Positions 8,681 to 23,026 of a stretch of 64,000 nt of DNA are shown in pieces. The notes beneath the pieces were generated by a model that had not been told where the DNA came from, searched no databases, and saw only the letters and a list, made by a program, of their open reading frames with translations. The DNA is taken from contig NZ_CP058306.1 of the NCBI RefSeq assembly GCF_013389595.1, positions 2,790,001 to 2,854,000 on the forward strand, given 5' to 3'. Made by a program: the position numbers and the translations under genes. The number at the start of each line of letters is the position of its first letter. Within the stretch, counting starts at the first letter, position 1. Source of the DNA: Flavobacterium sp. I3-2 (GTDB lineage: Bacteria; Bacteroidota; Bacteroidia; Flavobacteriales; Flavobacteriaceae).

Positions 8681-9721
8681 TTAGGTACTTTGGGAATAAT
8701 ACTTTTTCTTTGACCATAAACTTGCCTTTACTAAAAGTATCAGTACTGGCACTTCTATTAAAGGTCCAATAACTCCTACAAATGCTTGTGGTGAATGAAT
8801 ACCAAATATGGCTATAGAAACTGCAATAGCTAGTTCAAAATTGTTACCTGTTGCTGTAAATGCAATGGATGCATTTTTATCATATGGAACTTTCATTGCT
8901 TTATTGATAAAGAAACTGATGAAGAACATCATTACAAAATAAATAACTAATGGAATCGCTACTTTAATAACGTCTAAAGGTAGTTCAAGAATTTTATCCC
9001 CTTTTAAACTGAACATTACCACAATAGTAAACAATAATGCATAAAGTGTTATGGGGGATATTTTGGGTACGAATACACGATTGTACCACTGTATACCTTT
9101 CTCTCTAATTAAAGTGTATCGGGTGATAAATCCTGCTAAAAAAGGAATTCCTAAATAGATTAATACACTTTGTGTAACTTCCGTCATCGATACTGAAACA
9201 TTAAAATTTGCTAAACCTAATTTGGTTGGTAATATGTTGATGAATAACCAAACTAAAAAGCTATAACTTGATACTTGAAAAATACTATTTAGTGCGACTA
9301 ACATTGCTGTGTATTCTCTATTAGCCTTTGCTAAATCGCTCCAAACTATAACCATAGCAATACATCGGGCTAATCCAATGAGAATTAATCCGGACATATA
9401 ATCAGGCTGATCGTGAAGAAATAACACAGCTAAGCCAAACATTAAAACTGTACCTATAACCCAATTTAATAGTAAGGATATACCGATTACCTTTTTATTT
9501 TTGAATGCTTGTGGTAATAAAGTATAGTCTACTTTGGTTAATGGCGGAAACATCATAATAATTAAACCTATAGCTAAAGGTATATTTGTAGTTCCCACAC
9601 TCATACGTTCTACTACTATTGGCGTATTTGGAAATATATATCCAATTAAAACACCGAATATCATTGCGATAAATATCCACAAGGTCAAGTATCTATCTAA
9701 TAATTTTAATTTAGGCTGCAT
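8681..9721 (-). CDS. acr3: Arsenite efflux transporter, ACR3 family
   Basis: This 346-residue integral membrane protein has about ten hydrophobic helices. It carries ACR3 landmarks: an early IGLIIMMFPPLTKVDY segment, the conserved cysteine in GLARCIAMVIVWSDLAKAN, and FTATGNNFELAIAVSIA near the C-terminus. The Cys of GLARC is the known metalloid-binding residue of the family. It exports As(III) produced by the arsenate reductase, whose stop overlaps its ATG by one base (TAATG), so the two are tightly coupled. It is the last gene of the ars operon. Confidence 0.95.
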   Translation of the reverse strand: MQPKLKLLDRYLTLWIFIAMIFGVLIGYIFPNTPIVVERMSVGTTNIPLAIGLIIMMFPPLTKVDYTLLPQAFKNKKVIGISLLLNWVIGTVLMFGLAVLFLHDQPDYMSGLILIGLARCIAMVIVWSDLAKANREYTAMLVALNSIFQVSSYSFLVWLFINILPTKLGLANFNVSVSMTEVTQSVLIYLGIPFLAGFITRYTLIREKGIQWYNRVFVPKISPITLYALLFTIVVMFSLKGDKILELPLDVIKVAIPLVIYFVMMFFISFFINKAMKVPYDKNASIAFTATGNNFELAIAVSIAIFGIHSPQAFVGVIGPLIEVPVLILLVKASLWSKKKYYSQST

Positions 9722-10338
9722 TAATTAACTTGTATTTGAGAAAAAATGTACATCATTTCGGTTGCTATTTCGATACTTCGTTGCTGGTAAACTTCACTCT
9801 GTTCTATTGTACTGTCAGAAATTTTAGGATCGTCGTATGTAATTGGAATTCGTTTTTCTGCACCTGCAATAAAAGGGCACCCACCGTCTGCTTGTGAGCA
9901 AGTCATTATTGCCGCAAATTCTGAGCTAGGGTTATAAGGATGATCATATTTTTTAGAAAATCCGATAATCGGTAAACTATTTTCATCATATTTTATTGCG
10001 TAAATAGGATTACCGCCTTCAGCAATTTTGAGGATTTGGAAGCCTTGATGACTTAAAGTTTCTATTACTTTTGGAAACAAGGCTGTAATTTCTGTACCAC
10101 CTGAATAACAATTGACATCTTGAACATTATAATAGTATGCTGCAAATTGTGCCCATATTTGTGCTAGATGACTTCTGCGTGAATTGTGCGTGCAAATGAA
10201 ATTGAGATTTACAGCTTGCTTACGATTGACTTTCTCTTGAATATAAACAACCAAAGGTTGTAAAATAGCTTTTCTGTCATCAGAAATCTCTTGACTCAGA
10301 ACATTATTCTGAATAGTGTATAATAATTGGTTTTGCAT
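9721..10338 (-). CDS. arsC: Arsenate reductase, low-molecular-weight phosphatase type
   Basis: This 205-residue protein has the CX5R phosphatase loop in FICTHNSRRSHLAQ (C49, R55) and further cysteines in MTCSQADGGCPF, typical of thioredoxin-coupled or LMW-PTP-like arsenate reductases of Bacteroidota. ITYDDPKI near the C-terminus carries the DP general acid. It reduces arsenate to arsenite in the cytoplasm for export by the overlapping acr3 product. A short N-terminal extension of about 40 residues precedes the phosphatase domain. Thioredoxin is the probable reductant. Confidence 0.88.
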   Translation of the reverse strand: MQNQLLYTIQNNVLSQEISDDRKAILQPLVVYIQEKVNRKQAVNLNFICTHNSRRSHLAQIWAQFAAYYYNVQDVNCYSGGTEITALFPKVIETLSHQGFQILKIAEGGNPIYAIKYDENSLPIIGFSKKYDHPYNPSSEFAAIMTCSQADGGCPFIAGAEKRIPITYDDPKISDSTIEQSEVYQQRSIEIATEMMYIFSQIQVN

Positions 10339-10342
10339 TGGT

Positions 10343-11485
10343 TTAAAATTGAATAAGTAAGTAGCCTAGTATGGAACCAAATAATACAATGAAAGCACTA
10401 TTGATTTTTTTGAATTGAAAAACTATTACGGCACTGATCAATGCAATTGCAATGTTTCTCAAATCGGTAATGGTTTCTTTACCCATAATAATACAAACAG
10501 ATAAAATAATCGCTACAGATGCTACATTCACACCATTTAAAAAAGCCGCAAATGATTGGTTACTTCTTATAAACTTCATTAAAGGATGTATTAAAGCAAC
10601 CAAAATAAATGAGGGTAGAAAAATGGCTAAAGTAGATACAATAGCACCCGAAAGTCCGTTGATTTGATATCCAATAAAAGTTACAGATGAAAAAACAGGT
10701 CCCGGTGTAAATTGTCCAACTGCAATTGCGTCCATCAGTTGTATTCGCGTGAGTAAGCCTTTATCTACCAACTCGGTATCTAAGAAAGCAAATAAAACGT
10801 AGCCACTTCCGAAAAGAATTGAACCAATTTTTAGAAAAGTCCAAAATAAGGATTGGTTTATCGTAGACAGAAACGATCCATGCAATACAGGAAATAGAGC
10901 TAAAGGAACAAAACTTTTCATGGAACGAGATTGGCGAAAATTTTTTACTAAAAGCATAAAAAAGCCAGCGCCTACCAATAAAAAAATTTCATTGATACCT
11001 AAAAGCGATAAAACGACTACAGCAATTGCTAAAACACCTAGGTAAACATTCTTTATCGCTTTTAAAAACAGTGGATAAATGGCACCAATAATGATTGCAA
11101 TAATGGCTGGTTTGATTCCATATAAAAAAGGTGAAACTTCTGGAATTTGTCCGTACTTCTGATAAAAATAGGCGAAAATTCCGGTAATCAATACTGCTGG
11201 AAATATGAAACATAGTCCGGCAACTAATAGACCTTTCCATCCGCCTTTGTCGTAACCGATATGAATAGCTAGTTCAGTGCTATTAGGTCCAGGAATGAGG
11301 TTGGTAGCACCTAATAAATCTAAAAATTGCTGATCACTCATCCATTGCCGTTTCGCGACCACTTCTCTTTGCATCATAGCAATATGAGCCGCAGGACCAC
11401 CAAAGCCAATCACTCCAAGCTTGAAAAACAACCTTGCAATTTCCTTAATTTGTATTTTTTGATCCATATTGATTTTTATAGACAA
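10343..11485 (-). CDS. chrA: Chromate efflux transporter, ChrA family
   Basis: The 380-residue membrane protein is of the long-chain CHR type, with two homologous halves. The first half has KLGVIGFGGPAAHIAMM, and its counterpart in the second half is FLKIGSILFGSGYVLFAFL. The family signature ATNLIPGPNSTELAIHIGY and its second-half version AVGQFTPGPVFSSVTFIGY are both clear. It exports chromate. Its placement between arsC and the DUF6428 gene in an ArsR-controlled operon is common in Bacteroidota and suggests co-regulation with arsenic genes. The start could also be the Met at residue 7. Confidence 0.93.
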   Translation of the reverse strand: MSIKINMDQKIQIKEIARLFFKLGVIGFGGPAAHIAMMQREVVAKRQWMSDQQFLDLLGATNLIPGPNSTELAIHIGYDKGGWKGLLVAGLCFIFPAVLITGIFAYFYQKYGQIPEVSPFLYGIKPAIIAIIIGAIYPLFLKAIKNVYLGVLAIAVVVLSLLGINEIFLLVGAGFFMLLVKNFRQSRSMKSFVPLALFPVLHGSFLSTINQSLFWTFLKIGSILFGSGYVLFAFLDTELVDKGLLTRIQLMDAIAVGQFTPGPVFSSVTFIGYQINGLSGAIVSTLAIFLPSFILVALIHPLMKFIRSNQSFAAFLNGVNVASVAIILSVCIIMGKETITDLRNIAIALISAVIVFQFKKINSAFIVLFGSILGYLLIQF

Positions 11486-11495
11486 AAATATAATA

Positions 11496-11963
11496 TTAGC
11501 AACATCCAGAATTAGGTGTACAGCAAGACACTTTTTCTTGTTTTATTATAAATTTATTTTCTGTTGCTACTGGAATACCACAAGCATCTTCAGCTAAACA
11601 AGCTGTTTTTTTATTTTTTAAAATGAAATGTTTTCCATTAAATTCAAGATCATATTTACCGATTGTAGTCGATTGATATTCTACTTCTATTTCAGCATCT
11701 TCAATTCCTAATTTGTTTTCGGATAAACGAATGATGTTTAATAATTTTCCAGGTTTTAAACGATGCTCATAATCGTCTGCATTCCATAATTGGAAATTAA
11801 CAACTTTTTCATCTCTAACAACACCACCGCAATCAATAAATTTCTTAGTTATTTGCCCTATCTCTGTAACGTGAAAATGTTCTGGAACGAAAGTACCATC
11901 CTCTAATTGAAAAACAACATCATCTAATGTTGGTAAAATTTCTTTGATTTCTGAAAGTTTCAT
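11496..11963 (-). CDS. DUF6428 family protein, ars-operon associated
   Basis: This soluble protein of about 155 residues starts MKLSEIKEILP and contains FVPEHFHVTEIGQITKKFIDCGG, the pattern I associate with DUF6428. It ends with a Cys-rich tail (VSCCTPNSGCC) and an internal ACLAEDACGIP, which suggest metalloid or metal binding. An in-frame ATG six codons upstream, at 11981, lies only 7 bp from an ArsR-type palindrome, so I prefer the internal start. It is the second gene of the ars operon, directly after arsR. The biochemical function is not known to me. Confidence 0.82.
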   Translation of the reverse strand: MKLSEIKEILPTLDDVVFQLEDGTFVPEHFHVTEIGQITKKFIDCGGVVRDEKVVNFQLWNADDYEHRLKPGKLLNIIRLSENKLGIEDAEIEVEYQSTTIGKYDLEFNGKHFILKNKKTACLAEDACGIPVATENKFIIKQEKVSCCTPNSGCC

Positions 11964-11987
11964 ATACTTTTTAATTATCATTTATTA

Positions 11988-12003
11988 ATCGTAATATTAC
12001 GAT
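11988..12003. promoter_or_regulatory. ArsR-type operator (perfect 16-bp palindrome)
   Basis: ATCGTAATATTACGAT is a perfect palindrome between the arsR stop and the next gene. A near copy lies upstream of arsR at 12368-12383. Location and symmetry suggest an ArsR binding site that gives the downstream genes a second regulated start. Confidence 0.75.
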
Positions 12004-12023
12004 GATTTATTTAAAAAAATGCT

Positions 12024-12353
12024 TTAACAGCATTTCTCTATTTTTACGTTTTGATTAAAAAAACTTGAAAACTCATTCTGAATCGATACCCAAACCTTTA
12101 GATCAATACAATAACAAACCGATTTCCCTTCAATTGCACCTTTAAGAATTCCTATTTTCTTCAGTTCTTTTAAATGTTGCGAAATAGTAGCTTGTGCCAA
12201 ACCTAATACATCTACCAAATCTGTACATATACAAGCATTTTGTTTGATGATGTGCTGAATTATAGCAATACGAGCTGGATGCCCCAATACTTTAAATAAT
12301 GTAGCTAAATTATTTTGCTCTATTGTAAATATTTCTGACTTAGTAGTACCCAT
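12024..12353 (-). CDS. arsR: ArsR-family metalloregulatory repressor
   Basis: This 109-residue winged-helix protein has the recognition helix in LAQATISQHLKELKKIGILKG. Cysteines in NACICTDLV (CxC at the start of the wHTH) and a terminal KCC provide likely As(III) ligands. GHPARIAIIQHI is the usual ArsR helix. It should repress its own operon and release on arsenite. Operator-like palindromes lie directly upstream (12368-12383) and directly downstream (11988-12003). Confidence 0.94.
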   Translation of the reverse strand: MGTTKSEIFTIEQNNLATLFKVLGHPARIAIIQHIIKQNACICTDLVDVLGLAQATISQHLKELKKIGILKGAIEGKSVCYCIDLKVWVSIQNEFSSFFNQNVKIEKCC

Positions 12354-12503: not shown

Positions 12504-12517
12504 GTAACAAATGTTAC
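12504..12517. promoter_or_regulatory. Crp/Fnr-type operator, copy 1
   Basis: GTAACAAATGTTAC (GTAAC–N4–GTTAC) lies before the YeeE/YedE genes. The same 14 bases recur at 14218, 15075 and 18280. The regulator gene in the same cluster (13542-14174) is the likely ligand-responsive activator. Confidence 0.8.
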
Positions 12518-12566
12518 TGAATAGTAGTAAATAATGTTTGAAATTCGCAAAATAAAAATTAAAACT

Positions 12567-13115
12567 ATGGATTGGATATTTGGAACATGGCCTTGGTATG
12601 TAGGAGGTCCTATTATTGCATTTATAATGCTTGCTTTGATTTATTTAGGTAAAAGTTTTGGCTTTTCTTCAAATTTCAGAACTATCTGTTCCGCAATGGG
12701 TGCAGGTAAAACATGCTCGTTTTTCGATTTTAATTGGAGAGCTCAAAAGTGGAATCTACTTTTTTTAGTTGGTGCTGTGCTTGGAGGCTATTTAGCTGCA
12801 AATGTATTGTCAAACAATCAAATTCCTGAAATATCTGCATATACAACTGAGTATTTGCAAAACCTTGGATTTAATAGTGTTGGAAAAAGTTATGGTCCTA
12901 CAGAAATATTTGAAACTTTGAATGCAAATTCATTAGCTGTTTTAATCATTGGAGGATTACTTATTGGATTTGGAAGTAGATATGCTGGCGGATGTACTTC
13001 AGGACATGCTATTTCAGGTTTAAGTGATTTACAGTTACCTTCATTAATTGCTGTTATCGGTTTCTTTATCGGAGGATTAATCATGGTTCATTTATTATTA
13101 CCAATAATTTTTTAA
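12567..13115 (+). CDS. YeeE/YedE-family sulfur transporter, N-terminal half
   Basis: This integral membrane protein of about 182 residues begins MDWIFGTWPWYVGGPIIAF. It carries the YeeE/YedE motifs FRTICSAMGAGKTC and GFGSRYAGGCTSGHAISGLS, whose cysteines are the thiosulfate or sulfide transfer residues in the family. The upstream ATG at 12534 would lie within the promoter region set by the operator at 12504, so I take the start at 12567. It is followed after 2 bp by the DUF6691-like half, and the two probably form one sulfur import unit. Confidence 0.9.
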   Translation: MDWIFGTWPWYVGGPIIAFIMLALIYLGKSFGFSSNFRTICSAMGAGKTCSFFDFNWRAQKWNLLFLVGAVLGGYLAANVLSNNQIPEISAYTTEYLQNLGFNSVGKSYGPTEIFETLNANSLAVLIIGGLLIGFGSRYAGGCTSGHAISGLSDLQLPSLIAVIGFFIGGLIMVHLLLPIIF

Positions 13116-13117
13116 AA

Positions 13118-13531
13118 ATGAGAAGTATTTTATATATTGTGTTAGGAGTGATTTTTGGAATCACTATGTATAAGGCAGAAACAGCCTCATGGTTTAGAAT
13201 AGTAGAAATGTTTCAATTTCAATCTTTTCATATGTTTGGATTTATTGGTTCAGCATTAGTTATTGGATTGATTGGAATACAATTTATTAAGAGAAAGAGT
13301 GCCAAAGACCTTGATGGTAATCCAATTGTTATTAAACCGAAAGATAAGTCAATTAGTCGCTATTTATTCGGTGGTATTTCTTTTGGTTTAGGATGGGCTT
13401 TAATTGGTGCTTGTCCTGGTCCTATCTTTGTACTTTTAGGTGCAGGAACTTATTCTATAATTATTGTAATTTTAGCAGCATTAACAGGTACATGGTTGTA
13501 CGGAATATTAAAAGATTATCTACCTCATTAA
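13118..13531 (+). CDS. YeeE/YedE-family (DUF6691) membrane protein, second half
   Basis: The 137-residue membrane protein contains GGISFGLGWALIGACPGPIFVLLGAG, the cysteine-containing signature of the C-terminal YeeE/YedE half. MFGFIGSALVIG is an internal helix. It pairs with the preceding gene, separated by 2 bp, and is followed 10 bp later by the Crp/Fnr regulator in the same operon. It is expected to help import thiosulfate or a related sulfane compound. Confidence 0.9.
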   Translation: MRSILYIVLGVIFGITMYKAETASWFRIVEMFQFQSFHMFGFIGSALVIGLIGIQFIKRKSAKDLDGNPIVIKPKDKSISRYLFGGISFGLGWALIGACPGPIFVLLGAGTYSIIIVILAALTGTWLYGILKDYLPH

Positions 13532-13541
13532 TAAAATAAAT

Positions 13542-14174
13542 ATGATAAATAAAAGTTTATTAGAAAGTTATTTTAGTTCGCTTTTTGAAGAAGAATTAAT
13601 AGATGAAATGGTTCAAATTGGGCAAATTCGTTCCTTTGAGGAAAATGAAATCTTAATAGATTTAAATCAAACTATCTCACATATGCCCTTGCTTTTGCAT
13701 GGTGCGATACGAATTATGCGTGATGATGATAATGATGGAGAGCTTTTATTGTACTATTTAGAAAAAGGTGATACTTGTGCCATGACTATGACCTGTTGTT
13801 TGGGGACAAAAACAAGTAACATCCGTGCAACGGCAGAAACCGATGGTGAAATGTTGATGATTCCGGTTCAAAAAATGGATGAATGGTTAGCCAAATATGC
13901 AACTTGGCGCGCTTTTGTTTTTAATAGTTATCAAGATCGTTTAGACGAAATGATGCGTTCTATAGATAATTTAGCTTTTAATGATTCAAAAGGTCGATTA
14001 AAAAATTATTTAATAGAAGTTGCTAGTGTTAATAAAACACGAACAGTAAATAAAACACATGCAGAAATTGCTTATGAAATGAATACCTCTCGTGTGGTAA
14101 TTTCTCGATTGATAAAAGCATTAGAAAATGAAGGTTTTATTAAGCAACAACGTAACAGCATTACGATTTTATAA
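13542..14174 (+). CDS. Crp/Fnr-family transcriptional regulator
   Basis: The 210-residue protein has an N-terminal cyclic-nucleotide-binding-like barrel (residues about 25-125) and a C-terminal HTH_Crp domain. In the latter, THAEIAYEMNTSRVVISRLIKALENEGFI is the helix-turn-helix. The sensor has clustered cysteines (CAMTMTCCLG), which could respond to persulfide or redox state; this is inference. It is the third gene of its operon. The palindrome GTAACAAATGTTAC before four units of this sulfur cluster is its probable binding site. Confidence 0.92.
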   Translation: MINKSLLESYFSSLFEEELIDEMVQIGQIRSFEENEILIDLNQTISHMPLLLHGAIRIMRDDDNDGELLLYYLEKGDTCAMTMTCCLGTKTSNIRATAETDGEMLMIPVQKMDEWLAKYATWRAFVFNSYQDRLDEMMRSIDNLAFNDSKGRLKNYLIEVASVNKTRTVNKTHAEIAYEMNTSRVVISRLIKALENEGFIKQQRNSITIL

Positions 14175-14205
14175 AAGATGTTTCAGTAGAAACATCTTTT
14201 TTTTG
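14173..14205 (+). terminator. Rho-independent terminator after Crp/Fnr gene
   Basis: A 12-bp perfect stem (AAAAGATGTTTC with GAAACATCTTTT) encloses a 4-base loop and is followed by a T run. Confidence 0.9.
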
Positions 14206-14217
14206 CTGCATCGATCT

Positions 14218-14231
14218 GTAACAAATGTTAC
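14218..14231. promoter_or_regulatory. Crp/Fnr-type operator, copy 2
   Basis: GTAACAAATGTTAC stands 50 bp before the TauE/SafE start. A -7-like box GACCTTTG at 14254-14261 ends 36.5 bp from the operator centre, which fits class II activation around -41.5. Confidence 0.82.
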
Positions 14232-14280
14232 GCTCTACTTATTAATATAGATAGACCTTTGTAGTATAAAATTAAAAACA

Positions 14281-15069
14281 ATGGAAATCATAGGTTTTAT
14301 ATTAACTGTTGTCATCGGTTTACTGGTTGGTTTATTTGGTGGAGGTGGAAGCATTCTTACCGTACCTGTTTTAGTGTATCTATTTGCAATTCCTGCCACG
14401 TTATCTACGACATATTCTTTAGCTCTAGTTAGTATTACAAGTTTAATTGCGGCAACACCTCATGTGGTACAAAAGAAGTTGTCTTACACAAAAATACTTC
14501 AATTTGGTATTCCTTCAATGATAGCCTTATATACAATACGTTCTTTTGTTCTTCCATCAATCCCACCCTACTTCAAGTTTTTGGGATTTGAGATCGAGAA
14601 AAACACTTTTATGATGTTATTCTTTTCTTTATTAATGCTGACTTCTGGTTTTTTTATGATTAAACAAAAGAAAAATAATCCTGATTGTATCGATTGTTCA
14701 TATAATCATATAGCCTTAATGGTTGCAGGATTATTAGAAGGTTTAATAACAGGTATTGTTGGTGCTGGTGGTGGATTTATTATAGTACCTATATTAATGA
14801 TTTTTGGAAAAATGAGTGTAAAACAAGCCGTAGCCAATTCACTATTTATTATTGGGGTTAAATCATTTATTGGATTTTTAGGATCACACGATATCTCATC
14901 TTTAAACTTTTCCTTTTTAATAAAAATTTTAGCTATCGCCTTGGTTGGAATGTACTTCGGAGTTCAATTGAACAAAAAATTAGATGCCAAACAATTAAAA
15001 CCCATTTTTGGATATTTTGTGATGATTATGGGATGTATCATATTAATTAAAGAACTCATAATAAAATAG
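14281..15069 (+). CDS. Sulfite/organosulfur exporter, TauE/SafE family
   Basis: This 262-residue membrane protein has about eight helices and the duplicated TauE/SafE motifs GLLVGLFGGGGSILTVPVL near the N-terminus and LITGIVGAGGGFIIVPIL in the second half. The family exports sulfite, sulfonates or other sulfur anions. It has its own copy of the Crp/Fnr operator and lies between the regulator and the persulfide dioxygenase. Export of sulfite made by that enzyme is the likely role. Confidence 0.92.
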   Translation: MEIIGFILTVVIGLLVGLFGGGGSILTVPVLVYLFAIPATLSTTYSLALVSITSLIAATPHVVQKKLSYTKILQFGIPSMIALYTIRSFVLPSIPPYFKFLGFEIEKNTFMMLFFSLLMLTSGFFMIKQKKNNPDCIDCSYNHIALMVAGLLEGLITGIVGAGGGFIIVPILMIFGKMSVKQAVANSLFIIGVKSFIGFLGSHDISSLNFSFLIKILAIALVGMYFGVQLNKKLDAKQLKPIFGYFVMIMGCIILIKELIIK

Positions 15070-15074
15070 TTATT

Positions 15075-15088
15075 GTAACAAATGTTAC
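15075..15088. promoter_or_regulatory. Crp/Fnr-type operator, copy 3
   Basis: GTAACAAATGTTAC lies 56 bp before the start of the persulfide dioxygenase–rhodanese gene. Confidence 0.8.
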
Positions 15089-15143
15089 CATTTATATAAA
15101 AAAATCTCACGAAATTTACAACACAAATTAAAAGATATACAAA

Positions 15144-16556
15144 ATGAAAATAGAACAAATTTATACCGGATGTTTAGCACAAGGTGCCTATTATATAGAA
15201 AGTAAAGGTGAAGCAGCAATCATAGATCCTTTGCGAGAAACGCAACCTTATCTAGAGCGTTTAACCAAAGATGGCGTGCTTTTAAAATACATTTTCGAAA
15301 CGCACTTTCATGCCGATTTTGTAAGTGGACATTTAGATTTAAGTCAAAAAACAGGTGCACCGATTGTTTACGGACCAACCGCTCAGCCTGAATTCGAAGC
15401 AATTATAGCGGAGGATAATCAAATTTTTGAAATCGGAAATATTAAAATTAAAGTGTTACACACACCGGGTCATACCTTAGAAAGTACAACTTATTTATTA
15501 ATAGACAAGAACGGAAAAGAATCTGCAATTTTTAGTGGTGACACGTTGTTCTTAGGAGATGTAGGTCGACCTGACTTGGCTCAAAAAGCCGCTAGTATGA
15601 CTCAAGAAGAATTGGCGGGAATGCTTTACGATAGTTTATACAACAAGATTATGCCTTTAGCAGATGATATTACGGTATACCCAGCTCACGGAGCAGGTTC
15701 GGCTTGTGGTAAAAATATGATGAAAGAAACGGTTGATACTTTAGGTAATCAAAAGAAAATGAATTATGCCTTAAATCAACCTTCTAAAGAAGCTTTTATT
15801 GAAGCCGTTACCGATGGTTTATTACCTCCACCTGCCTATTTTGGAATGAACGTTGCGATGAATAAAAAAGGATACGAAAGTTTCGAAACTGTTTTATCTC
15901 AAGGAATGACAGCTTTGTCGGTAGAAGAATTTGAAAATGCAGCTGAACAATCAGGAGCTCTAATTTTAGATACTCGTGCCAATGGAGATTTCGCTAAAGG
16001 ATTTATTCCTCAATCGATTAATATTGGCATCAATGGTGATTTTGCTCCTTGGGTGGGGTCTATGATTGTTGATGTGAATCAACCGATTTTATTAGTTACA
16101 GATGCTGATATGGAAGAAGAAACAGTAACGCGTTTAAGTCGTGTAGGATTTGATCACGTTATCGGCCATTTACAAGGTGGATTCTCTTCTTGGAAAGATG
16201 CTGAAAAAGAAATCGATACAGTTAATAGAATAACTGCAACAGAATTTGCTTCTCAAATTGAAGGTAAAGAAGCCATGGTGATTGATGTTCGTAAAGAATC
16301 GGAATATGCAGCAGAACACGTAGAAGATGCGTATAGTAAACCTTTGGCTTACATTAACGATTGGGTAAACGATATCGATCCTAAACAACCGTTTTATTTA
16401 CATTGTGCAGGAGGCTACAGAAGTATGATTGCTGCAAGTATTCTTCAAGCGCGTGGGTATAGAAACTTTATCGAAATTGAAGGCGGATTCAAAGCCATAG
16501 CTGAAACACAAATACCTAAAACCGATTTCGTATGTCAAAGCAAAGTTTTAAAATAA
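15144..16556 (+). CDS. Persulfide dioxygenase–rhodanese fusion (cytoplasmic)
   Basis: This 470-residue protein has an ETHE1-like metallo-beta-lactamase domain (about 1-240): THFHADFVSGH (H54, H56, D58), HTPGHT near 113 and FSGDTLFLGDVGRPDL. Two rhodanese domains follow. The first (about 255-345) has lost its catalytic Cys (LLVTDADMEEE in its place). The second has LHCAGGYRS. The enzyme should oxidise glutathione or other persulfides to sulfite, fed by the rhodanese domain. No signal peptide is visible. A Crp/Fnr operator stands upstream. Confidence 0.93.
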   Translation: MKIEQIYTGCLAQGAYYIESKGEAAIIDPLRETQPYLERLTKDGVLLKYIFETHFHADFVSGHLDLSQKTGAPIVYGPTAQPEFEAIIAEDNQIFEIGNIKIKVLHTPGHTLESTTYLLIDKNGKESAIFSGDTLFLGDVGRPDLAQKAASMTQEELAGMLYDSLYNKIMPLADDITVYPAHGAGSACGKNMMKETVDTLGNQKKMNYALNQPSKEAFIEAVTDGLLPPPAYFGMNVAMNKKGYESFETVLSQGMTALSVEEFENAAEQSGALILDTRANGDFAKGFIPQSINIGINGDFAPWVGSMIVDVNQPILLVTDADMEEETVTRLSRVGFDHVIGHLQGGFSSWKDAEKEIDTVNRITATEFASQIEGKEAMVIDVRKESEYAAEHVEDAYSKPLAYINDWVNDIDPKQPFYLHCAGGYRSMIAASILQARGYRNFIEIEGGFKAIAETQIPKTDFVCQSKVLK

Positions 16557-16906
16557 TTTTTTCAGGTTTAATTATCATTATTATGTTTGGATTACTAAAA
16601 AATATGTTCTCAGAGAACAACAACGAAGAATTAAATAACATCATTAGTAACGCCTATTTAGTAGATGTTAGAACACCCGCTGAATTTGCAGAAGGAAACG
16701 TTCCTGGTTCGGTAAATATACCTTTAGATCAAGTACAAAATCAATTATCAAAATTCAAAAATCACGAAAGTATTGTGGTATTTTGCAGAAGCGGAAACAG
16801 AAGTGGTCAAGCCAAAGCTATTTTAGAACAGAATGGTTTTACTAATGTAGTAAATGGTGGTACTTGGCAACAAATAAATGAAATTAAAAATGGAGCAGGA
16901 AAATAA
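16532..16906 (+). CDS. Membrane-anchored single-domain rhodanese
   Basis: The 124-residue protein starts inside the end of the previous gene (25-bp overlap). It has an N-terminal hydrophobic anchor (residues about 6-24) and a rhodanese domain with VDVRTPAEFAEGNVPGSVNIPL and the active loop VVFCRSGNRS. It likely transfers sulfane sulfur outside the cytoplasmic membrane. Overlaps on both sides indicate translational coupling with the dioxygenase and the methyltransferase. Confidence 0.92.
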   Translation: MSKQSFKIIFSGLIIIIMFGLLKNMFSENNNEELNNIISNAYLVDVRTPAEFAEGNVPGSVNIPLDQVQNQLSKFKNHESIVVFCRSGNRSGQAKAILEQNGFTNVVNGGTWQQINEIKNGAGK

Positions 16907-17519
16907 AACAGAAGCATGTTGTATTACGCAATGTGATGTTCCTATGGATCAACACTATTGGGAAACACGTTGGGAAAAACAAGAAACAGGTTGGGATATT
17001 GGGTACCCATCCCCTGCAATTACATAATATATGGACGGGATCGCGGATAAAAATACCGCGATTCTGATTCCTGGTTGCGGAAATGCCTACGAAGCAGAAT
17101 ATTTAGTTCAGCAAGGATTCACTAATATTACCTTAATTGATATTGCACCAAAGGCGGTTGAAAATTTAAAACAAAAGTTTGAAAACAATCCCAACATCAC
17201 CATCTTGTTAGAAAATTTCTTCGAACATAAAGGTGGTTATGATTTGGTCATAGAGCAAACTTTTTTTAGTGCCATTCCTCCGTTCAGAAGAAAGGAATAT
17301 GCCGCAAAAATGCACGACATTTTAAAGGAAAACGGACGAATTGTAGGAGTTCTATTCGACAAACAGTTCAATAATCCATTTCCACCATTTGGAGGTTGCC
17401 CTTGTGAATATAAACCCATTTTTGAAAGTCTTTTCGATATCAAAACCATGGAAGAATGTTACAACAGTATTCCTCCACGACAAGGAAGTGAAGTATTTAT
17501 TCATTTTATCAAAAAATAA
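16890..17519 (+). pseudogene. Thiopurine-methyltransferase-like gene with in-frame stop
   Basis: The frame from ATG at 16890 reads MEQENKTEACCITQCDV and then HYWETRWEKQETGWDIGYPSPAIT, the N-terminus expected of a TPMT-family SAM methyltransferase. A TAA at 17025-17027 interrupts it at codon 46. The rest continues in the same frame with motif I (ILIPGCGNAYEAEYL) and NIPTI-like core segments up to 17519. One base change (CAA to TAA) would explain it. A 162-residue product could start at ATG 17031 but would lack the N-terminal substrate lid. The intact family methylates thiols or sulfide. Confidence 0.83.
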
Positions 17520-17523
17520 ACCA

Positions 17524-17754
17524 ATGAAACAGTGGATTCAATCATGGAATTTGATGCGTTTGCTAAGATTGGCCATGGCCATTGCAATCATTTATCAAGG
17601 AATTGATTTACAGCAGTGGTTGTTTGTTGGAATCGGTGTGGTACTAGCACTTATGCCTTTGTTCAATATAGGTTGTTGTGGTACCAACGGGTGTTCTGTA
17701 CCACGCAATCAATCAAAAAATAATAGAGAAACAACATTTACAGAAATCAAATGA
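17524..17754 (+). CDS. Small membrane protein, Cys-rich (YgaP-like transmembrane type)
   Basis: This product of about 76 residues starts MKQWIQSWNLMRLLRLAMAI. It has two hydrophobic stretches separated by a short turn, followed by NIGCCGTNGCSV and a polar tail. It resembles the transmembrane DUF2892/YgaP-type proteins found beside rhodaneses. The start at 17524 gives a 4-bp gap from the previous frame and avoids a long overlap. Its stop overlaps the next ATG (ATGA). A role in sulfur metabolism is inferred only from context. Confidence 0.8.
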   Translation: MKQWIQSWNLMRLLRLAMAIAIIYQGIDLQQWLFVGIGVVLALMPLFNIGCCGTNGCSVPRNQSKNNRETTFTEIK

Positions 17755-17945
17755 AAACATTCTTTCAAAAACATATCATAACCATTATAGGTGTTGCTGT
17801 AGGTCTTATAGTAGGGTATTTGTATTGGCATTATGTGGGATGCAATTCTGGCACATGTGCTATTACATCAAACCCAAGAAACAGTACATTGTACGGTGGT
17901 ATGATTGGAGGGTTGGTATTTTCATTATTTAAAAAAGAAAAATAG
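17751..17945 (+). CDS. DUF6132-like small membrane protein
   Basis: The 64-residue protein has a hydrophobic helix (IITIIGVAVGLIVGYLYWHYV) and a second one at STLYGGMIGGLVFSLF, separated by GCNSGTCAITSNP. This glycine- and cysteine-containing layout matches the DUF6132 family found in Bacteroidota sulfur loci. It overlaps its upstream neighbour by 4 bp and is followed after 2 bp by thioredoxin. Function unknown. Confidence 0.8.
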   Translation: MKTFFQKHIITIIGVAVGLIVGYLYWHYVGCNSGTCAITSNPRNSTLYGGMIGGLVFSLFKKEK

Positions 17946-17947
17946 AT

Positions 17948-18241
17948 ATGACATTTGAAGAAATCATTAATCAAGATAAACCTGTTTTAGTAGACTTTTT
18001 TGCTACTTGGTGTGGACCTTGTAAAATGCAAGCTCCTATTTTAGAAGAAGTAAAACAACACTTAGGTGATCAAGTATCGGTAATCAAAATCGATGTCGAT
18101 CAAAACCAATCGGTAGCCGCTCAGTACCAAGTAAGAAGCGTACCTACATTAATCATTTTCAAAAATGGACAAATTCGTTGGCGCCAAGCAGGTGTTTTTC
18201 CTGCGAATGAGTTGGAACGTTTACTAAAAGAAAATTTATAA
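17948..18241 (+). CDS. Thioredoxin
   Basis: This 97-residue single-domain thioredoxin has the active site ATWCGPCKMQAP (C22, C25) and the cis-proline loop RSVPTLIIFKNG. No signal peptide is visible, so it is cytoplasmic. It probably reduces persulfide intermediates of the rhodanese and dioxygenase enzymes encoded in the same operon. It is the last gene before a terminator. Confidence 0.95.
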   Translation: MTFEEIINQDKPVLVDFFATWCGPCKMQAPILEEVKQHLGDQVSVIKIDVDQNQSVAAQYQVRSVPTLIIFKNGQIRWRQAGVFPANELERLLKENL

Positions 18242-18244
18242 TAG

Positions 18245-18277
18245 AAAAAAAGCATTGTCCTATGGGCAGTGCTTTTT
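18245..18277 (+). terminator. Rho-independent terminator after thioredoxin gene
   Basis: A 12-bp stem with two G·U pairs (18249-18260 with 18264-18275), a 3-base loop and a following T run. Confidence 0.85.
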
Positions 18278-18279
18278 GT

Positions 18280-18293
18280 GTAACAAATGTTAC
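18280..18293. promoter_or_regulatory. Crp/Fnr-type operator, copy 4
   Basis: GTAACAAATGTTAC is followed by a TATTTTAG box at 18316-18323. The box ends exactly 36.5 bp from the operator centre, the same geometry as at copy 2. Confidence 0.83.
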
Positions 18294-18342
18294 ATAACTT
18301 TTCCTAACAGTTGTGTATTTTAGGCTTATTAAAACCATCACC

Positions 18343-19803
18343 ATGAAACATAAGTTATTGTTATTTAAAGCCTTAGGCGTATTTTTAGTGTCTCATTATA
18401 CTTTAAATGCTCAGAATATGAAGTTTGAACGAATTTACGATGAAACACTTGCACAAGCGAGTTACATCATTGCGAATGATAAAAATGAAGCCATCGTAAT
18501 TGACCCAAAACGCGATATCGATACGTATTTAGAATACGCGAAAAAGAATGGTTTAACGATAAAATATGTTACTGAAACACATATTCATGCCGATTATTTA
18601 AGTGGGGCACCAGAATTAGCAAAAGCTACTCAAGCGGATTTATTACTATCTAACGAAGGTGGACCTGATTGGCAATATGCTTTTGATCATCAACCATTAA
18701 AAGACCAGCAAATTATACAATTGGGAAATGTTGAACTAAAGGTGATACACACTCCCGGACATACGCCAGAAAGCTTAACTTTTTTAGTAAAAAACACGAA
18801 AGATCAGACGGCACCAACTAAAGCTATTACAGGAGATTTTATTTTTGTAGGTGATGTGGGTCGTCCTGATTTATTAGAAAAAGCGGCCGGTCAAAAAGGG
18901 TCGCAATTTGAAGGAGCATATCAATTGTTTACATCATTGAATCAGTTCATTAAATTACCTAAAAACACAGAGATTTGGCCTGGTCACGGTGCTGGTTCGT
19001 TTTGTGGTAAAAGTTTGAGCAACATTCCTCAATCTACATTGGAACAAGAAATGGCAACAAGCCCTGCTTTTCAATACTTGAATGATAAAGATGCGTTTAC
19101 TAAATTTATTTTAGATGGTCAGCCTGAACCACCTAAATATTTTGCGGTAATGAAACAATGGAATAAATCGGTACGACCTTTATTGATTGAAGTACCAAAA
19201 ATTCAAAATTTATCAACTGTTGAATTAGAGAATGCCATCAAAAATAATGTGTTGGTGATTGATGCTCGTAAAAAAGAGGAAGTAGCGAAAGGCTTTATTC
19301 CAGGTAGTTTACATATTGAAGGTGGAAAATCATTTGCAACGTTTGTAGGATCTTTGGTAGATTACAACAATCAAATAGTATTGGTGGGCAATGAAGATCA
19401 AATCGAAAATTTACAACGTAAATTGATACGCATTGGAATGGACAACATTTATGGTTATATTTCTGATGTAAAAGAATTAAATGGTTTGAAAACTTCTAAT
19501 ATTATTACAGCTAAAGAGGTTCAACAATTAATGAAAGTCAAAAATGTTCAGTTGGTTGATGTTCGTACAGCAACGGAATACGCAAGTGGTCACATCAAAG
19601 GTTTTGAAAACATTACTCTGAATTCTTTAGAGAAAAACGTTTCTAAAATCCAAAAAGATGCACCTGTGATTATTCACTGTCAAAGTGGTGTACGTGGTGC
19701 TATGGCCTACTCTATTCTAGAAAAATTAGGCTACACAAATATTTTAAATTACAGCGGCAGTATCAACGATTGGTCTGCTAAAAAATTACCTTTGGTAAAA
19801 TAA
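18343..19803 (+). CDS. Exported persulfide dioxygenase–rhodanese fusion
   Basis: This 486-residue protein has an N-terminal signal peptide (MKHKLLLFKALGVFLVSHYT, cut after LNAQ). The metallo-beta-lactamase domain has THIHADYLSG (H80, H82, D84), HTPGHTPES and ITGDFIFVGDVGRPDL. Two rhodanese repeats follow: the first lacks its Cys (VLVGNEDQ), the second keeps IIHCQSGVRG. It is the periplasmic counterpart of the protein at 15144. The start at 18343 is preferred because an upstream frame start at 18313 overlaps the promoter box. Confidence 0.92.
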   Translation: MKHKLLLFKALGVFLVSHYTLNAQNMKFERIYDETLAQASYIIANDKNEAIVIDPKRDIDTYLEYAKKNGLTIKYVTETHIHADYLSGAPELAKATQADLLLSNEGGPDWQYAFDHQPLKDQQIIQLGNVELKVIHTPGHTPESLTFLVKNTKDQTAPTKAITGDFIFVGDVGRPDLLEKAAGQKGSQFEGAYQLFTSLNQFIKLPKNTEIWPGHGAGSFCGKSLSNIPQSTLEQEMATSPAFQYLNDKDAFTKFILDGQPEPPKYFAVMKQWNKSVRPLLIEVPKIQNLSTVELENAIKNNVLVIDARKKEEVAKGFIPGSLHIEGGKSFATFVGSLVDYNNQIVLVGNEDQIENLQRKLIRIGMDNIYGYISDVKELNGLKTSNIITAKEVQQLMKVKNVQLVDVRTATEYASGHIKGFENITLNSLEKNVSKIQKDAPVIIHCQSGVRGAMAYSILEKLGYTNILNYSGSINDWSAKKLPLVK

Positions 19804-20200: not shown

Positions 20201-20611
20201 ATGAAAGAAACAACCGTTTCTAGTACATCAATATTGGTGTTACGCATCGCTGTGAGTGGCATTTTTATCGCCGCAGGAATAAATCATTTACAAAAACCTC
20301 AAGGCGTTGCCAAACGAATTTTAGAAGCACCAAGTGGTGAATTTTTAAGTTCCATTGTTGATCCACATTTCCTTGCGTTAAGTTCAGGCTTTTTATTATT
20401 ACTTTTCGGAATTACATTTTTGTTGGGTATTTACACGAGAATCAGTGCCATTGCTTTAGTGCTTTTATTGATTCCGATTACTTTAACTATTCAAATAAAT
20501 GGAGGTATATTGTTTGGACCTTTATGGAAGAACATAGTCATTTTTGGTGGCTTGTCTTTCTTTATCATCAATAAAAATCTTCCGTATCAAATCTTTCCAA
20601 AAACTAAATAA
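20201..20611 (+). CDS. DoxX-family membrane protein
   Basis: The 136-residue protein has four hydrophobic helices: LRIAVSGIFIAAGINHL, FLALSSGFLLLLFGITFLLG, ISAIALVLLLIPITLTI and the final IVIFGGLSFFII. This is the DoxX/DoxD-like layout. DoxD/DoxA act with thiosulfate:quinone oxidoreduction in archaea, and here the gene sits among persulfide-oxidising genes. Its stop overlaps the ATG of the SoxB-like gene (TAATG). Confidence 0.87.
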   Translation: MKETTVSSTSILVLRIAVSGIFIAAGINHLQKPQGVAKRILEAPSGEFLSSIVDPHFLALSSGFLLLLFGITFLLGIYTRISAIALVLLLIPITLTIQINGGILFGPLWKNIVIFGGLSFFIINKNLPYQIFPKTK

Positions 20612-22206
20612 TGAAAAAATATATTTTAACCTTACTTGCGTCTATTCCATTCGTAACTATGGCACAACAACAAAAAATAACCATTTTACAGACAGCAGAT
20701 ATCCATGCATATATGAATCCTCACGATGAATTATTTGTGGAAAACGGACAAATTACCTTTCGTAAAGCTGGAGGATTAGCTCATATTAAAACCGTTGTAG
20801 ATCAAATCAAAAAAGAAAATCCTAAAGGGACGCTTTTGATTGATGGTGGTGATTTTTACCAAGGAAGTGGAGAAAGTGTTCGCTCACAAGGTGCTATTTT
20901 CCCAAAAATTATCCACGAAATGAATTATGATTTGCTGATTCCTGGCAATTGGGAAGTGATTTATGGCAAAGAAGTGATGATGGAATTGATGAACAATTAC
21001 AAAACCAATGTCATTACCTCCAATATGTTTCATAAAACGGATAACAACCCTATGTTCCCTCAGCATTGGATTACAGAAATGAAAGGTGTTAAAATAGGTT
21101 TTATTTCTTATAATGATCCTGAAATCCCTATTCGTCAAAATCCTGGTTATTCTGAAGGTATTGCATTTACAGAAGTTAATCATAATCTGAAAGCCTTAGT
21201 TTCGGAAATGAAAACTGTTAGAAAAGTCGACCTATTATTTATTGTCGCTCATATTGGTATTTCCAAACAAGTAGCTTTAGCCAATCATCCCGATGTAGAA
21301 GGCGTAGATTTTATTTTTGGAAATGATACCCACGAACGCATTCGAAAACCTATTGAAGGTAAATACAGTAAAGTAGTAGAACCTGGCGCTTTTAGTTCGT
21401 TTTTAGGAAGATTGGACGTTACGGTAGAAAATGGAAAAATGATAGATTATCAATATAATTTGATAGAAATTGATCCTAAAAAATATCCGGCAGATAAAAA
21501 AGTTCAAAAAGTAATTGATCGCCAACTAAAACCATTTGCCAAAGAAATGAACGAAGTATTGGGGTATACTACAACGCCTTTGTATCGTTATTTGGTAGTA
21601 GAAAATCCGATGGATAATTTAATTACCGATGCCTTGCTATGGAAAACAGGTGTAGATTTTGCAACCTCTAATGGTTTCCGTTTTGGGGTGCCAATTTTAC
21701 CGAATGAAGAAGGAAAAGCAGCCATTACACAACGAGATTTATGGCGTATGCTTCCGGTAGATGAAAAAATGAAAATTGCAGAAGTTTCTGGTCAACAAAT
21801 TTTAGATTGGCTAGAAAAAGAAATCAATAATGTATATGCTAAAGATCCTTTAAAACGTTTTGGCGGTTGGTTGGTACGCTTCTCTGGCATGACATTAAAA
21901 TTTGATAGCAGCAAAGAGATCGGCGAACGTGTATTAGAAGTAACCATTCAAGGAAAGCCTTTAGAAAAAGACAAAATGTATAAAATGGCATCTTGTAATC
22001 GTACTGGTGAACCGTTATCGACAATGTGTAGAATGCCAAATGCTAAAAATGCGGTCATTCAAAAATTCACATTGCATGATGCTGTTAGAGATTACTTGAA
22101 ACACCACAAAACGGTAAGTCCGAAAATTGATGGTCGTGCTCAGGCAGTAGATTTAGGTGATAATGTATTCTCCCAAATGAAAGAAACAGGATACGAGTTT
22201 AAATAA
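20611..22206 (+). CDS. SoxB-like periplasmic metallophosphoesterase / 5'-nucleotidase family
   Basis: This 531-residue exported protein has signal peptide MKKYILTLLASIPFVTMAQ. Metal motifs include LQTADIHAYM (D30, H32), LLIDGGDFYQGSG, IPGNWEV and LFIVAHIGISK, and a C-terminal 5'-nucleotidase domain is present. The GNWE in place of the usual GNH(D/E) is characteristic of SoxB thiosulfohydrolases. It may hydrolyse a sulfate or sulfane group in the periplasm. A nucleotidase role is the alternative. It ends the sulfur cluster. Confidence 0.85.
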   Translation: MKKYILTLLASIPFVTMAQQQKITILQTADIHAYMNPHDELFVENGQITFRKAGGLAHIKTVVDQIKKENPKGTLLIDGGDFYQGSGESVRSQGAIFPKIIHEMNYDLLIPGNWEVIYGKEVMMELMNNYKTNVITSNMFHKTDNNPMFPQHWITEMKGVKIGFISYNDPEIPIRQNPGYSEGIAFTEVNHNLKALVSEMKTVRKVDLLFIVAHIGISKQVALANHPDVEGVDFIFGNDTHERIRKPIEGKYSKVVEPGAFSSFLGRLDVTVENGKMIDYQYNLIEIDPKKYPADKKVQKVIDRQLKPFAKEMNEVLGYTTTPLYRYLVVENPMDNLITDALLWKTGVDFATSNGFRFGVPILPNEEGKAAITQRDLWRMLPVDEKMKIAEVSGQQILDWLEKEINNVYAKDPLKRFGGWLVRFSGMTLKFDSSKEIGERVLEVTIQGKPLEKDKMYKMASCNRTGEPLSTMCRMPNAKNAVIQKFTLHDAVRDYLKHHKTVSPKIDGRAQAVDLGDNVFSQMKETGYEFK

Positions 22207-22237: not shown

Positions 22238-22330
22238 TGAGTTCGCTATTCTTTTTTAATCAACTAATGTAACAATAGTAACTAATCAAATGTAAACTTA
22301 CTTATAGATTTGTAAACATTACATTTAAAA

Positions 22331-23026
22331 ATGACCAAGCAAATTTATTACATACTATCATTCATTTTATTGATTTCAACTAATAGTGTTGCTCAATCCA
22401 ATAACTTATGGTTGAGAGCTACGTTTTCTGTAAAAGATTCTTTAGGAATTACCTATGATGCAGAGTTACAATATCGGTTACAAACAATTGCTACAGAAAG
22501 CATACCTAAACACCCTTTTTTAAATTCTGGACGTATTTGGATGCATTATTCACTTAATGAAAAAATGAAAATTTCATTATCCCCTGTGGCTTTTTTTGAC
22601 CACATAAAATATAAGAACAAAGACGAACTTTATCTAAAGTCACATATAAAAGAATACAGAAATAGTTTAGCCGCAGAGTATCAATTTATTCAACAAAAAA
22701 GATTTCATTTATATGCTAGAACAGCCATTGAATTTAGATTTTTTTCCAACAAAAAAAATGAATTTAGATGGAGAAATCGCGTAGGTATAGATATCAAAAT
22801 TACTAATAAAACTATACTAAGACCGTTTTACGAAATCTTTCATAAAAATTCTAATTCCAATTCACTAATATTGGATCAAATGCGTTTTAACTTGAGTTTG
22901 AAACATCAATTTTCAAAAAAATGGATTGCAGAATTAGGTTATATTGACCAGCTAAATCCAAATCAGCTAACGGTAAAACTAGAAAGGAAACCTAATGTAT
23001 TCATAAATATTCAATATAAATTATAA
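22331..23026 (+). CDS. DUF2490 family outer-membrane-like protein
   Basis: This 231-residue protein has a signal peptide (MTKQIYYILSFILLISTNSV, cut near AQS) and many alternating-hydrophobicity strands typical of a small beta-barrel, ending with the aromatic-flanked strand NVFINIQYKL. NLWLRATFSVKDSLG and the tract on sensing basic barrel strands match DUF2490. The function is not known. It stands alone, with a terminator upstream and an empty region downstream. Confidence 0.85.
   Translation: MTKQIYYILSFILLISTNSVAQSNNLWLRATFSVKDSLGITYDAELQYRLQTIATESIPKHPFLNSGRIWMHYSLNEKMKISLSPVAFFDHIKYKNKDELYLKSHIKEYRNSLAAEYQFIQQKRFHLYARTAIEFRFFSNKKNEFRWRNRVGIDIKITNKTILRPFYEIFHKNSNSNSLILDQMRFNLSLKHQFSKKWIAELGYIDQLNPNQLTVKLERKPNVFINIQYKL

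Follow-up and report, generated by a model that had tools for sequence, protein, structure and literature searches.

The window analysed here, 64,000 bp of Flavobacterium sp. I3-2 (contig NZ_CP058306.1, positions 2,790,001 to 2,854,000), holds a cluster of sulfur genes that includes a gene for a Crp/Fnr regulator (13542..14174), and a 14-bp palindrome, GTAACAAATGTTAC, recurs within it. Exact copies, each built of 6-bp arms around a 2-bp centre (GTAACA-AA-TGTTAC), lie at 12504-12517, 14218-14231, 15075-15088 and 18280-18293 (copies 1 to 4; all features of the cluster are on the forward strand, and coordinates are those of the window unless otherwise stated). Copy 1 stands before genes for a YeeE/YedE-type sulfur transport protein in two parts (12567..13115, Sulf_transp PF04143 above cut-off; 13118..13531, DUF6691 and Sulf_transp) and for the regulator; copy 2 before a TauE/SafE-type exporter gene (14281..15069, PF01925); copy 3 before an operon that encodes a metallo-beta-lactamase/rhodanese fusion protein (15144..16556) and a rhodanese (16532..16906, Pfam); and copy 4 before the gene for a second such fusion (18343..19803). 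Both fusion proteins match the structures 3tp9 and 3r2u across nearly their full length, and their domain architecture suggests that both are persulfide dioxygenases. The initial annotation of this DNA had placed the four palindromes at these positions, each before a gene or operon of the sulfur cluster, and the Pfam-annotated genes downstream bear this out. It overlooked a fifth, degenerate site, GTAACAATAGTAAC at 22269..22282, which was found in a scan for degenerate arms with a fixed 22-nt gap to a promoter-like box, and which precedes a DUF2490 gene (22331..23026). We hold with considerable confidence that all five palindromes serve the Crp/Fnr protein as operators, and that it would act as a class II activator of the sulfur units; regulator and operator would probably turn on genes for sulfide and persulfide clean-up here and in many relatives.

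A genome-wide search for the palindrome, which the initial annotation had proposed as a check, found four exact copies of it in 3,549,933 bp, all four in the window and none scattered elsewhere, against about 0.07-0.10 copies expected from the composition of the window. The looser form GTAACN4GTTAC occurs at nine genomic places and its reversed control at eight, so that its number is not enriched; its placement is nevertheless non-random, since four of the nine places are in the window and two in a paralogous cluster, outside long open reading frames (ORFs), the remaining three being within long open frames. Chance repeats, for which the nine-to-eight count of the loose motif might be cited, are rejected as having a negligible probability in view of the four exact copies against about 0.1 expected and of the conservation and spacing described below.

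Spacing of the repeats from promoter-like boxes

The -7 element of Bacteroides fragilis promoters is TAnnTTTG, as quoted in PMC9330008. Each of the four exact copies has a -7-like box, and in every case the distance from operator centre to box end is exactly 36.5 bp: GAAATTCG at 12540..12547 (copy 1, 4 of 6 positions of TAnnTTTG), GACCTTTG at 14254..14261 (copy 2, 5 of 6), GAAATTTA at 15111..15118 (copy 3, 4 of 6) and TATTTTAG at 18316..18323 (copy 4, 5 of 6). The fifth operator is followed at the same spacing by TAGATTTG at 22305..22312, a 6 of 6 match that lies 19 bp ahead of the DUF2490 start codon at 22331. The distance of 36.5 bp had been noticed before at copies 2 and 4 and holds there; the boxes of copies 1 and 3 are present as well, and to place them "at or within 1 bp" of that distance was too loose, both being at exactly 36.5 bp. 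At copy 1 the box and the first ATG (12534), from which the ORF of the first YeeE gene is listed, overlap, so that translation more likely begins at the in-frame ATG at 12567, and for the gene behind copy 4 the ATG at 18343 is a likelier start than the listed GTG at 18313.

Conservation in relatives and a class-wide survey

To the loci of relatives belong the best 80 of 147 confirmed loci from one scan of genome contigs; they span Flavobacteriaceae, Weeksellaceae, Sphingobacteriaceae, Crocinitomicaceae, Flammeovirgaceae and others. In their 1,246,954 bases we found 97 perfect sites, whereas two control patterns of equal composition gave 1 and 4, and just one of the 97 falls within an ORF. Homologs of the sulfur-cluster genes of the window or of the regulator follow 76 of these sites, the first downstream ORF being a fusion in 34 cases, TauE in 15, YeeE1 in 11, the regulator in 8, rhodanese in 3, DUF6132 in 3 and thioredoxin in 2; the downstream ORF of another 16 resembles none of the genes of the window, and a start could not be found for 5. 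When 18 near-duplicates were removed, 63 of the 79 sites left had a box matching TAnnTTTG in at least 5 of 6 positions at exactly 36.5 bp (28 of them perfect), while the next best offset gave 6. As judged from these loci, the site and its spacing are conserved across Flavobacteriales, Sphingobacteriales and a Flammeovirgaceae-type relative. A degenerate form like the fifth site of the window, GTAACN4GTAAC, also stands before YeeE in six Sphingobacterium loci (L046, L047, L049, L052, L053 and L111).

This spacing supports the class II geometry that had been proposed for the window, in which the operator centre lies about 41.5 bp upstream of the transcription start; the box distance fits at those 63 sites, and the start itself is predicted from it. 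The regulator might instead bind the operator and repress, as Crp/Fnr proteins can, and the direction of the effect cannot be told from sequence; however, repressor sites usually vary in position, and a fixed spacing with the operator over the -35 region is the geometry of a class II activator, so that we consider repression quite unlikely. In the alignment of sites, T and G are the commonest bases directly after GTTAC (0.47 and 0.46, at positions 7.5-8.5 after the operator), and could be the remnant of a -33 TTG element 20 bp ahead of the -7 box.

A survey of 295 genomes of the class with the stricter pattern operator-N22-TAnnTTTG gave 67 matches in 49 genomes, compared with 4 for the reversed pattern; the Flavobacterium genome itself, whose boxes are imperfect, has no match to so strict a pattern. 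An A1-type regulator (E <= 1e-20) is encoded in 44 of the 49 genomes with a match and in 132 of the 246 without. Thirty of the 67 loci were taken for gene content. In 13 of them the downstream ORF is a homolog of the fusion, TauE, rhodanese or thioredoxin proteins of the window, and Pfam searches of 10 of the 17 others found Pyr_redox_2 (with a weak sulfide-dehydrogenase match), YeiH-type, Prismane, DUF2492, ferredoxin, a second Pyr_redox_2, outer membrane efflux, DUF983, TauE and DsbD. The downstream ORFs of two loci (L124, L146) are short and doubtful. Six matches stand before outer-membrane efflux or DUF983-type proteins, some of them near a regulator (L130 and L132, assigned by Pfam; L131, L137, L138 and L141, assigned by eye).

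A second cluster is present in the Flavobacterium genome itself. At genome positions 1973189-1973812 it encodes a regulator 79% identical to that of the window; genes for TauE and a fusion protein come next, both provided with a GTAACN4GTTAC site of their own, and both sites have the box at 36.5 bp, despite the differing intergenic sequence around them. The order there is regulator-TauE-fusion-DUF6132-thioredoxin, without YeeE genes (locus L033, 1966000-1984000). Both cluster copies are also found in Paenimyroides tangerinum (L038, L042). The description of the palindromes as marking a local sulfur regulon stands as to the regulon, but its extent is wider than local, given the fifth site, this second cluster and the class-wide regulog.

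Co-variation of regulator and operator

Arg180 and residue 181 of Crp/Fnr proteins (in the numbering of E. coli CRP) have been linked to operator bases, with Pro181 in HcpR2 going with GTAACnnnnGTTAC, according to PMC1274295. The window regulator has Arg180-Val181-Arg185 (its own residues 184, 185 and 189) in a recognition helix that reads SRVVISR. Residue 181 and the flanking 900 bp were read for 169 regulators, of which 164 are distinct after removal of 5 duplicates. Regulators with Val181 (n = 117 distinct) have GTAAC sites nearby in 67 cases and GTGAC sites in none; those with Glu181 (n = 47) have GTAAC sites in none and GTGAC sites in 4. In the set drawn from the class (4 duplicates removed), which is the fair one for co-variation as the 80 loci were selected for SRVV, the figures are 16 of 38 with GTAAC and none with GTGAC for Val181, and none with GTAAC and 4 of 47 with GTGAC for Glu181.

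A control pattern turns up in 2 of the same 47 loci, so the argument rests on a nested Glu181 clade and not on number alone. Three Glu181 proteins (L170, L196, L202; starred in the tree) form a clade nested among Val181 proteins; GTGACN4GTCAC is the site at all three, followed after the same 22 nt by a box that matches in 5 or 6 of 6 positions. Downstream of these sites lie OsmC genes (L170, scanned; L196, similar) and a gene for a YgaP-type membrane protein (L202); the fourth Glu181 regulator with GTGAC (L224) has a divergent Pyr_redox_2 gene. As read from this comparison, a change at residue 181 of the regulator goes with a change at base 5 of the operator half-site. If binding is direct, a new residue should be met by a fitting new base while the geometry stays the same, as is seen here, and the co-variation makes it very likely that the operator is bound by the Crp/Fnr protein, acting as a class II activator. 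The assignment of the operator to the regulator encoded within the cluster, which the initial annotation had inferred, gains support from this natural swap, which would be a clean case of regulator-operator co-evolution.

Several points weigh against this reading. Fifty of the 117 distinct Val181 proteins have no perfect site within 900 bp, the Glu181 GTGAC sites are few, and a Fisher test on the co-variation counts ignores kinship. The 80-locus scan used a peptide pattern containing SRVV, so that Val181 is partly selected there. Twenty of the 80 loci lack a perfect site; 14 of these have a degenerate site with the 22-nt gap, a weak count since in the same 20 loci a gap of 24 gives 16 matches compared with 20 at 22. 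In the window itself the boxes are imperfect (4-5 of 6) apart from that of the fifth site, and class matches with a listed regulator closer than 3.5 kb are few (at least 18 of 67). The sulfur signal is deduced from gene content and conserved cysteines.

Taking these points into account, we propose that a dimer of the regulator would bind GTAACN4GTTAC, with its centre some 41.5 bp ahead of the transcription start, and would activate from this class II position, standing in for a good -33 element. The units so controlled would be YeeE-YeeE-crp, TauE, the persulfide-dioxygenase/rhodanese-thioredoxin operon, the operon of the second fusion, DoxX and SoxB-like proteins, and DUF2490. The regulator is predicted to activate its own operon (positive autoregulation), since the YeeE, YeeE and crp genes behind copy 1 are only 2 and 10 bp apart. 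The inducer would be sulfane sulfur in the form of persulfide or polysulfide, or else its thiol-redox shadow, and the regulator would sense it through Cys79, Cys85 and Cys86. We infer binding, activation and the transcription start, and with less certainty the inducer.

The regulator and its possible signal

The regulator belongs to the Crp/Fnr family by its matches to PF00027 (36.8, cut-off 27.5) and PF13545 (36.2, cut-off 27), and its AlphaFold2 model has the CRP fold with a mean predicted local distance difference test (pLDDT) score of 84, falling to 60-66 over residues 71-90, where its cysteines lie. FNR is characterized by N-terminal iron-sulfur cysteines; the window protein has none of these, its sole cysteines being Cys79, Cys85 and Cys86. 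Among the 164 distinct proteins Cys79 is conserved in 164, Cys85 in 160 and Cys86 in 137, and Cys79/Cys85 form a conserved pair of the kind expected of a sulfane-sulfur sensor. In an alignment with CRP the three cysteines fall in the segment from Glu72 to Ser83 of the cyclic AMP (cAMP) pocket, which makes up the phosphate pocket of CRP, and Glu72, Arg82, Thr127 and Ser128, which we take to be the cAMP contacts of CRP, are not kept, their places being held by Met81, Thr91, Met137 and Met138. That the regulator is a cAMP receptor governing a nutritional regulon, as might be thought from CRP being its nearest curated model and from the close fold, is rejected as very unlikely, since it scores 57 bits against a CRP cut-off of 266 and the presumed contact residues are replaced.

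The conserved cysteines, the loss of these contacts and the persulfide-removing targets together suggest sulfane-sulfur sensing, to which we give about an even chance. More specifically, a cyclic-nucleotide pocket may have been turned into a thiol sensor in this Bacteroidota subfamily of Crp/Fnr proteins, in which a disulfide, polysulfide or persulfide between Cys79 and Cys85/Cys86 would switch on a class-wide persulfide-removal regulon, a proposal that could as easily prove wrong as right. Alternatively, the protein might sense nitric oxide through heme, respond to the general redox state through a disulfide, or carry a metal site.

The published HcpR2 consensus is GTAACnnnnGTTAC (PMC1274295), and on this ground one might take the regulator for a nitric-oxide sensor of the HcpR type, with the sulfur genes as part of a nitrosative-stress regulon. 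Operator and box do stand before a hybrid cluster protein gene (hcp) in one class genome (locus L122 of genome G073), the one hcp site met with, although hcp was not searched for across all loci; that genome, however, has no A1-type regulator at E <= 1e-20, and judging from this locus the motif seems to be used by another Crp/Fnr protein as well. Further, Pro181, which PMC1274295 gives for HcpR2, occurs in none of the 169 regulators, all of which read RV or RE, and the neighbours are sulfur genes at the window and in relatives. We regard an HcpR-type sensor as unlikely.

Relation to known systems

The proposed class II Crp/Fnr regulon combines an HcpR2-like operator, a sulfur target set and a cysteine-bearing pocket. 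With HcpR/HcpR2 it shares the operator class and Arg180, and the 180/181 specificity rule of PMC1274295 fits here; it differs in having Val or Glu at 181 and not Pro, sulfur genes in place of hcp, and three conserved cysteines. E. coli CRP/CAP class II activation is similar in fold, helix-turn-helix and a predicted operator centre near -41.5, whereas here the cAMP-pocket residues are replaced, the operator is another and the -7 box is the TAnnTTTG of Bacteroidota. The best Protein Data Bank sequence match (E 3.5e-23) is 3dv8, a Crp/Fnr protein of Eubacterium rectale with Cys-x5-Cys at the same place, so that the cysteine pair is older than the regulon; 3dv8 has Glu at 181 and lacks the third cysteine, at position 86.

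Sulfane-sulfur sensors over genes of this kind include CstR, a repressor, and FisR, neither of them a Crp/Fnr protein. The MarR-type sensors and SqrR/BigR likewise control persulfide dioxygenase, rhodanese and sulfur transporter genes, as does the regulator here, but they are repressors and belong to protein families other than Crp/Fnr. Our literature search, which did not extend to regulon databases, found no Crp/Fnr regulator, and indeed no regulator of any kind, described for persulfide-dioxygenase/rhodanese genes of Bacteroidota. If the present reading is true, a Crp/Fnr activator serves sulfide homeostasis, whereas the sensors met in that search are of other families. Sulfidic sediments, the gut and waste water are rich in Bacteroidota, and a named regulator with its operator, promoter geometry and candidate sensor cysteines makes a directly testable system.

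Other genes in and beside the cluster

Beside copy 1 lies a divergent operon (8681-12353) for ArsR, DUF6428, a chromate-type transporter, an ArsC-like protein and ACR3, which looks like arsenic resistance. Its ArsR protein (12024-12353) adjoins copy 1 and has a weak likeness to sulfur-sensing ArsR proteins (34.7 bits with the BigR model, cut-off 155), and might on these grounds be taken for the operator binder; but the operon that begins with its gene also encodes an ACR3 arsenite exporter and an ArsC-like protein, and just 1 of the 80 loci has a homolog of it, so we reject this reading as extremely unlikely.

Behind the second fusion gene, and probably in the same operon, lie genes for a DoxX-family protein (20201..20611) and a 5'-nucleotidase/SoxB-like protein (20611..22206). 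The name SoxB was not adopted for the latter, nor TsuA for the gene at 12534, the curated model in each case being far below its cut-off. The rhodanese gene of the copy 3 operon is followed by genes for a small membrane protein without a Pfam match (17389..17754, with an ATG near 17524 as the likelier start), a DUF6132 protein (17751..17945, Pfam) and thioredoxin (17948..18241, TIGR01068 above cut-off). The same operon contains a thiopurine-methyltransferase-type gene (16878-17519) in which a single in-frame stop codon (17025-17027) breaks the reading frame; three relatives (L038, L039, L041) have an uninterrupted frame of 209-213 residues.

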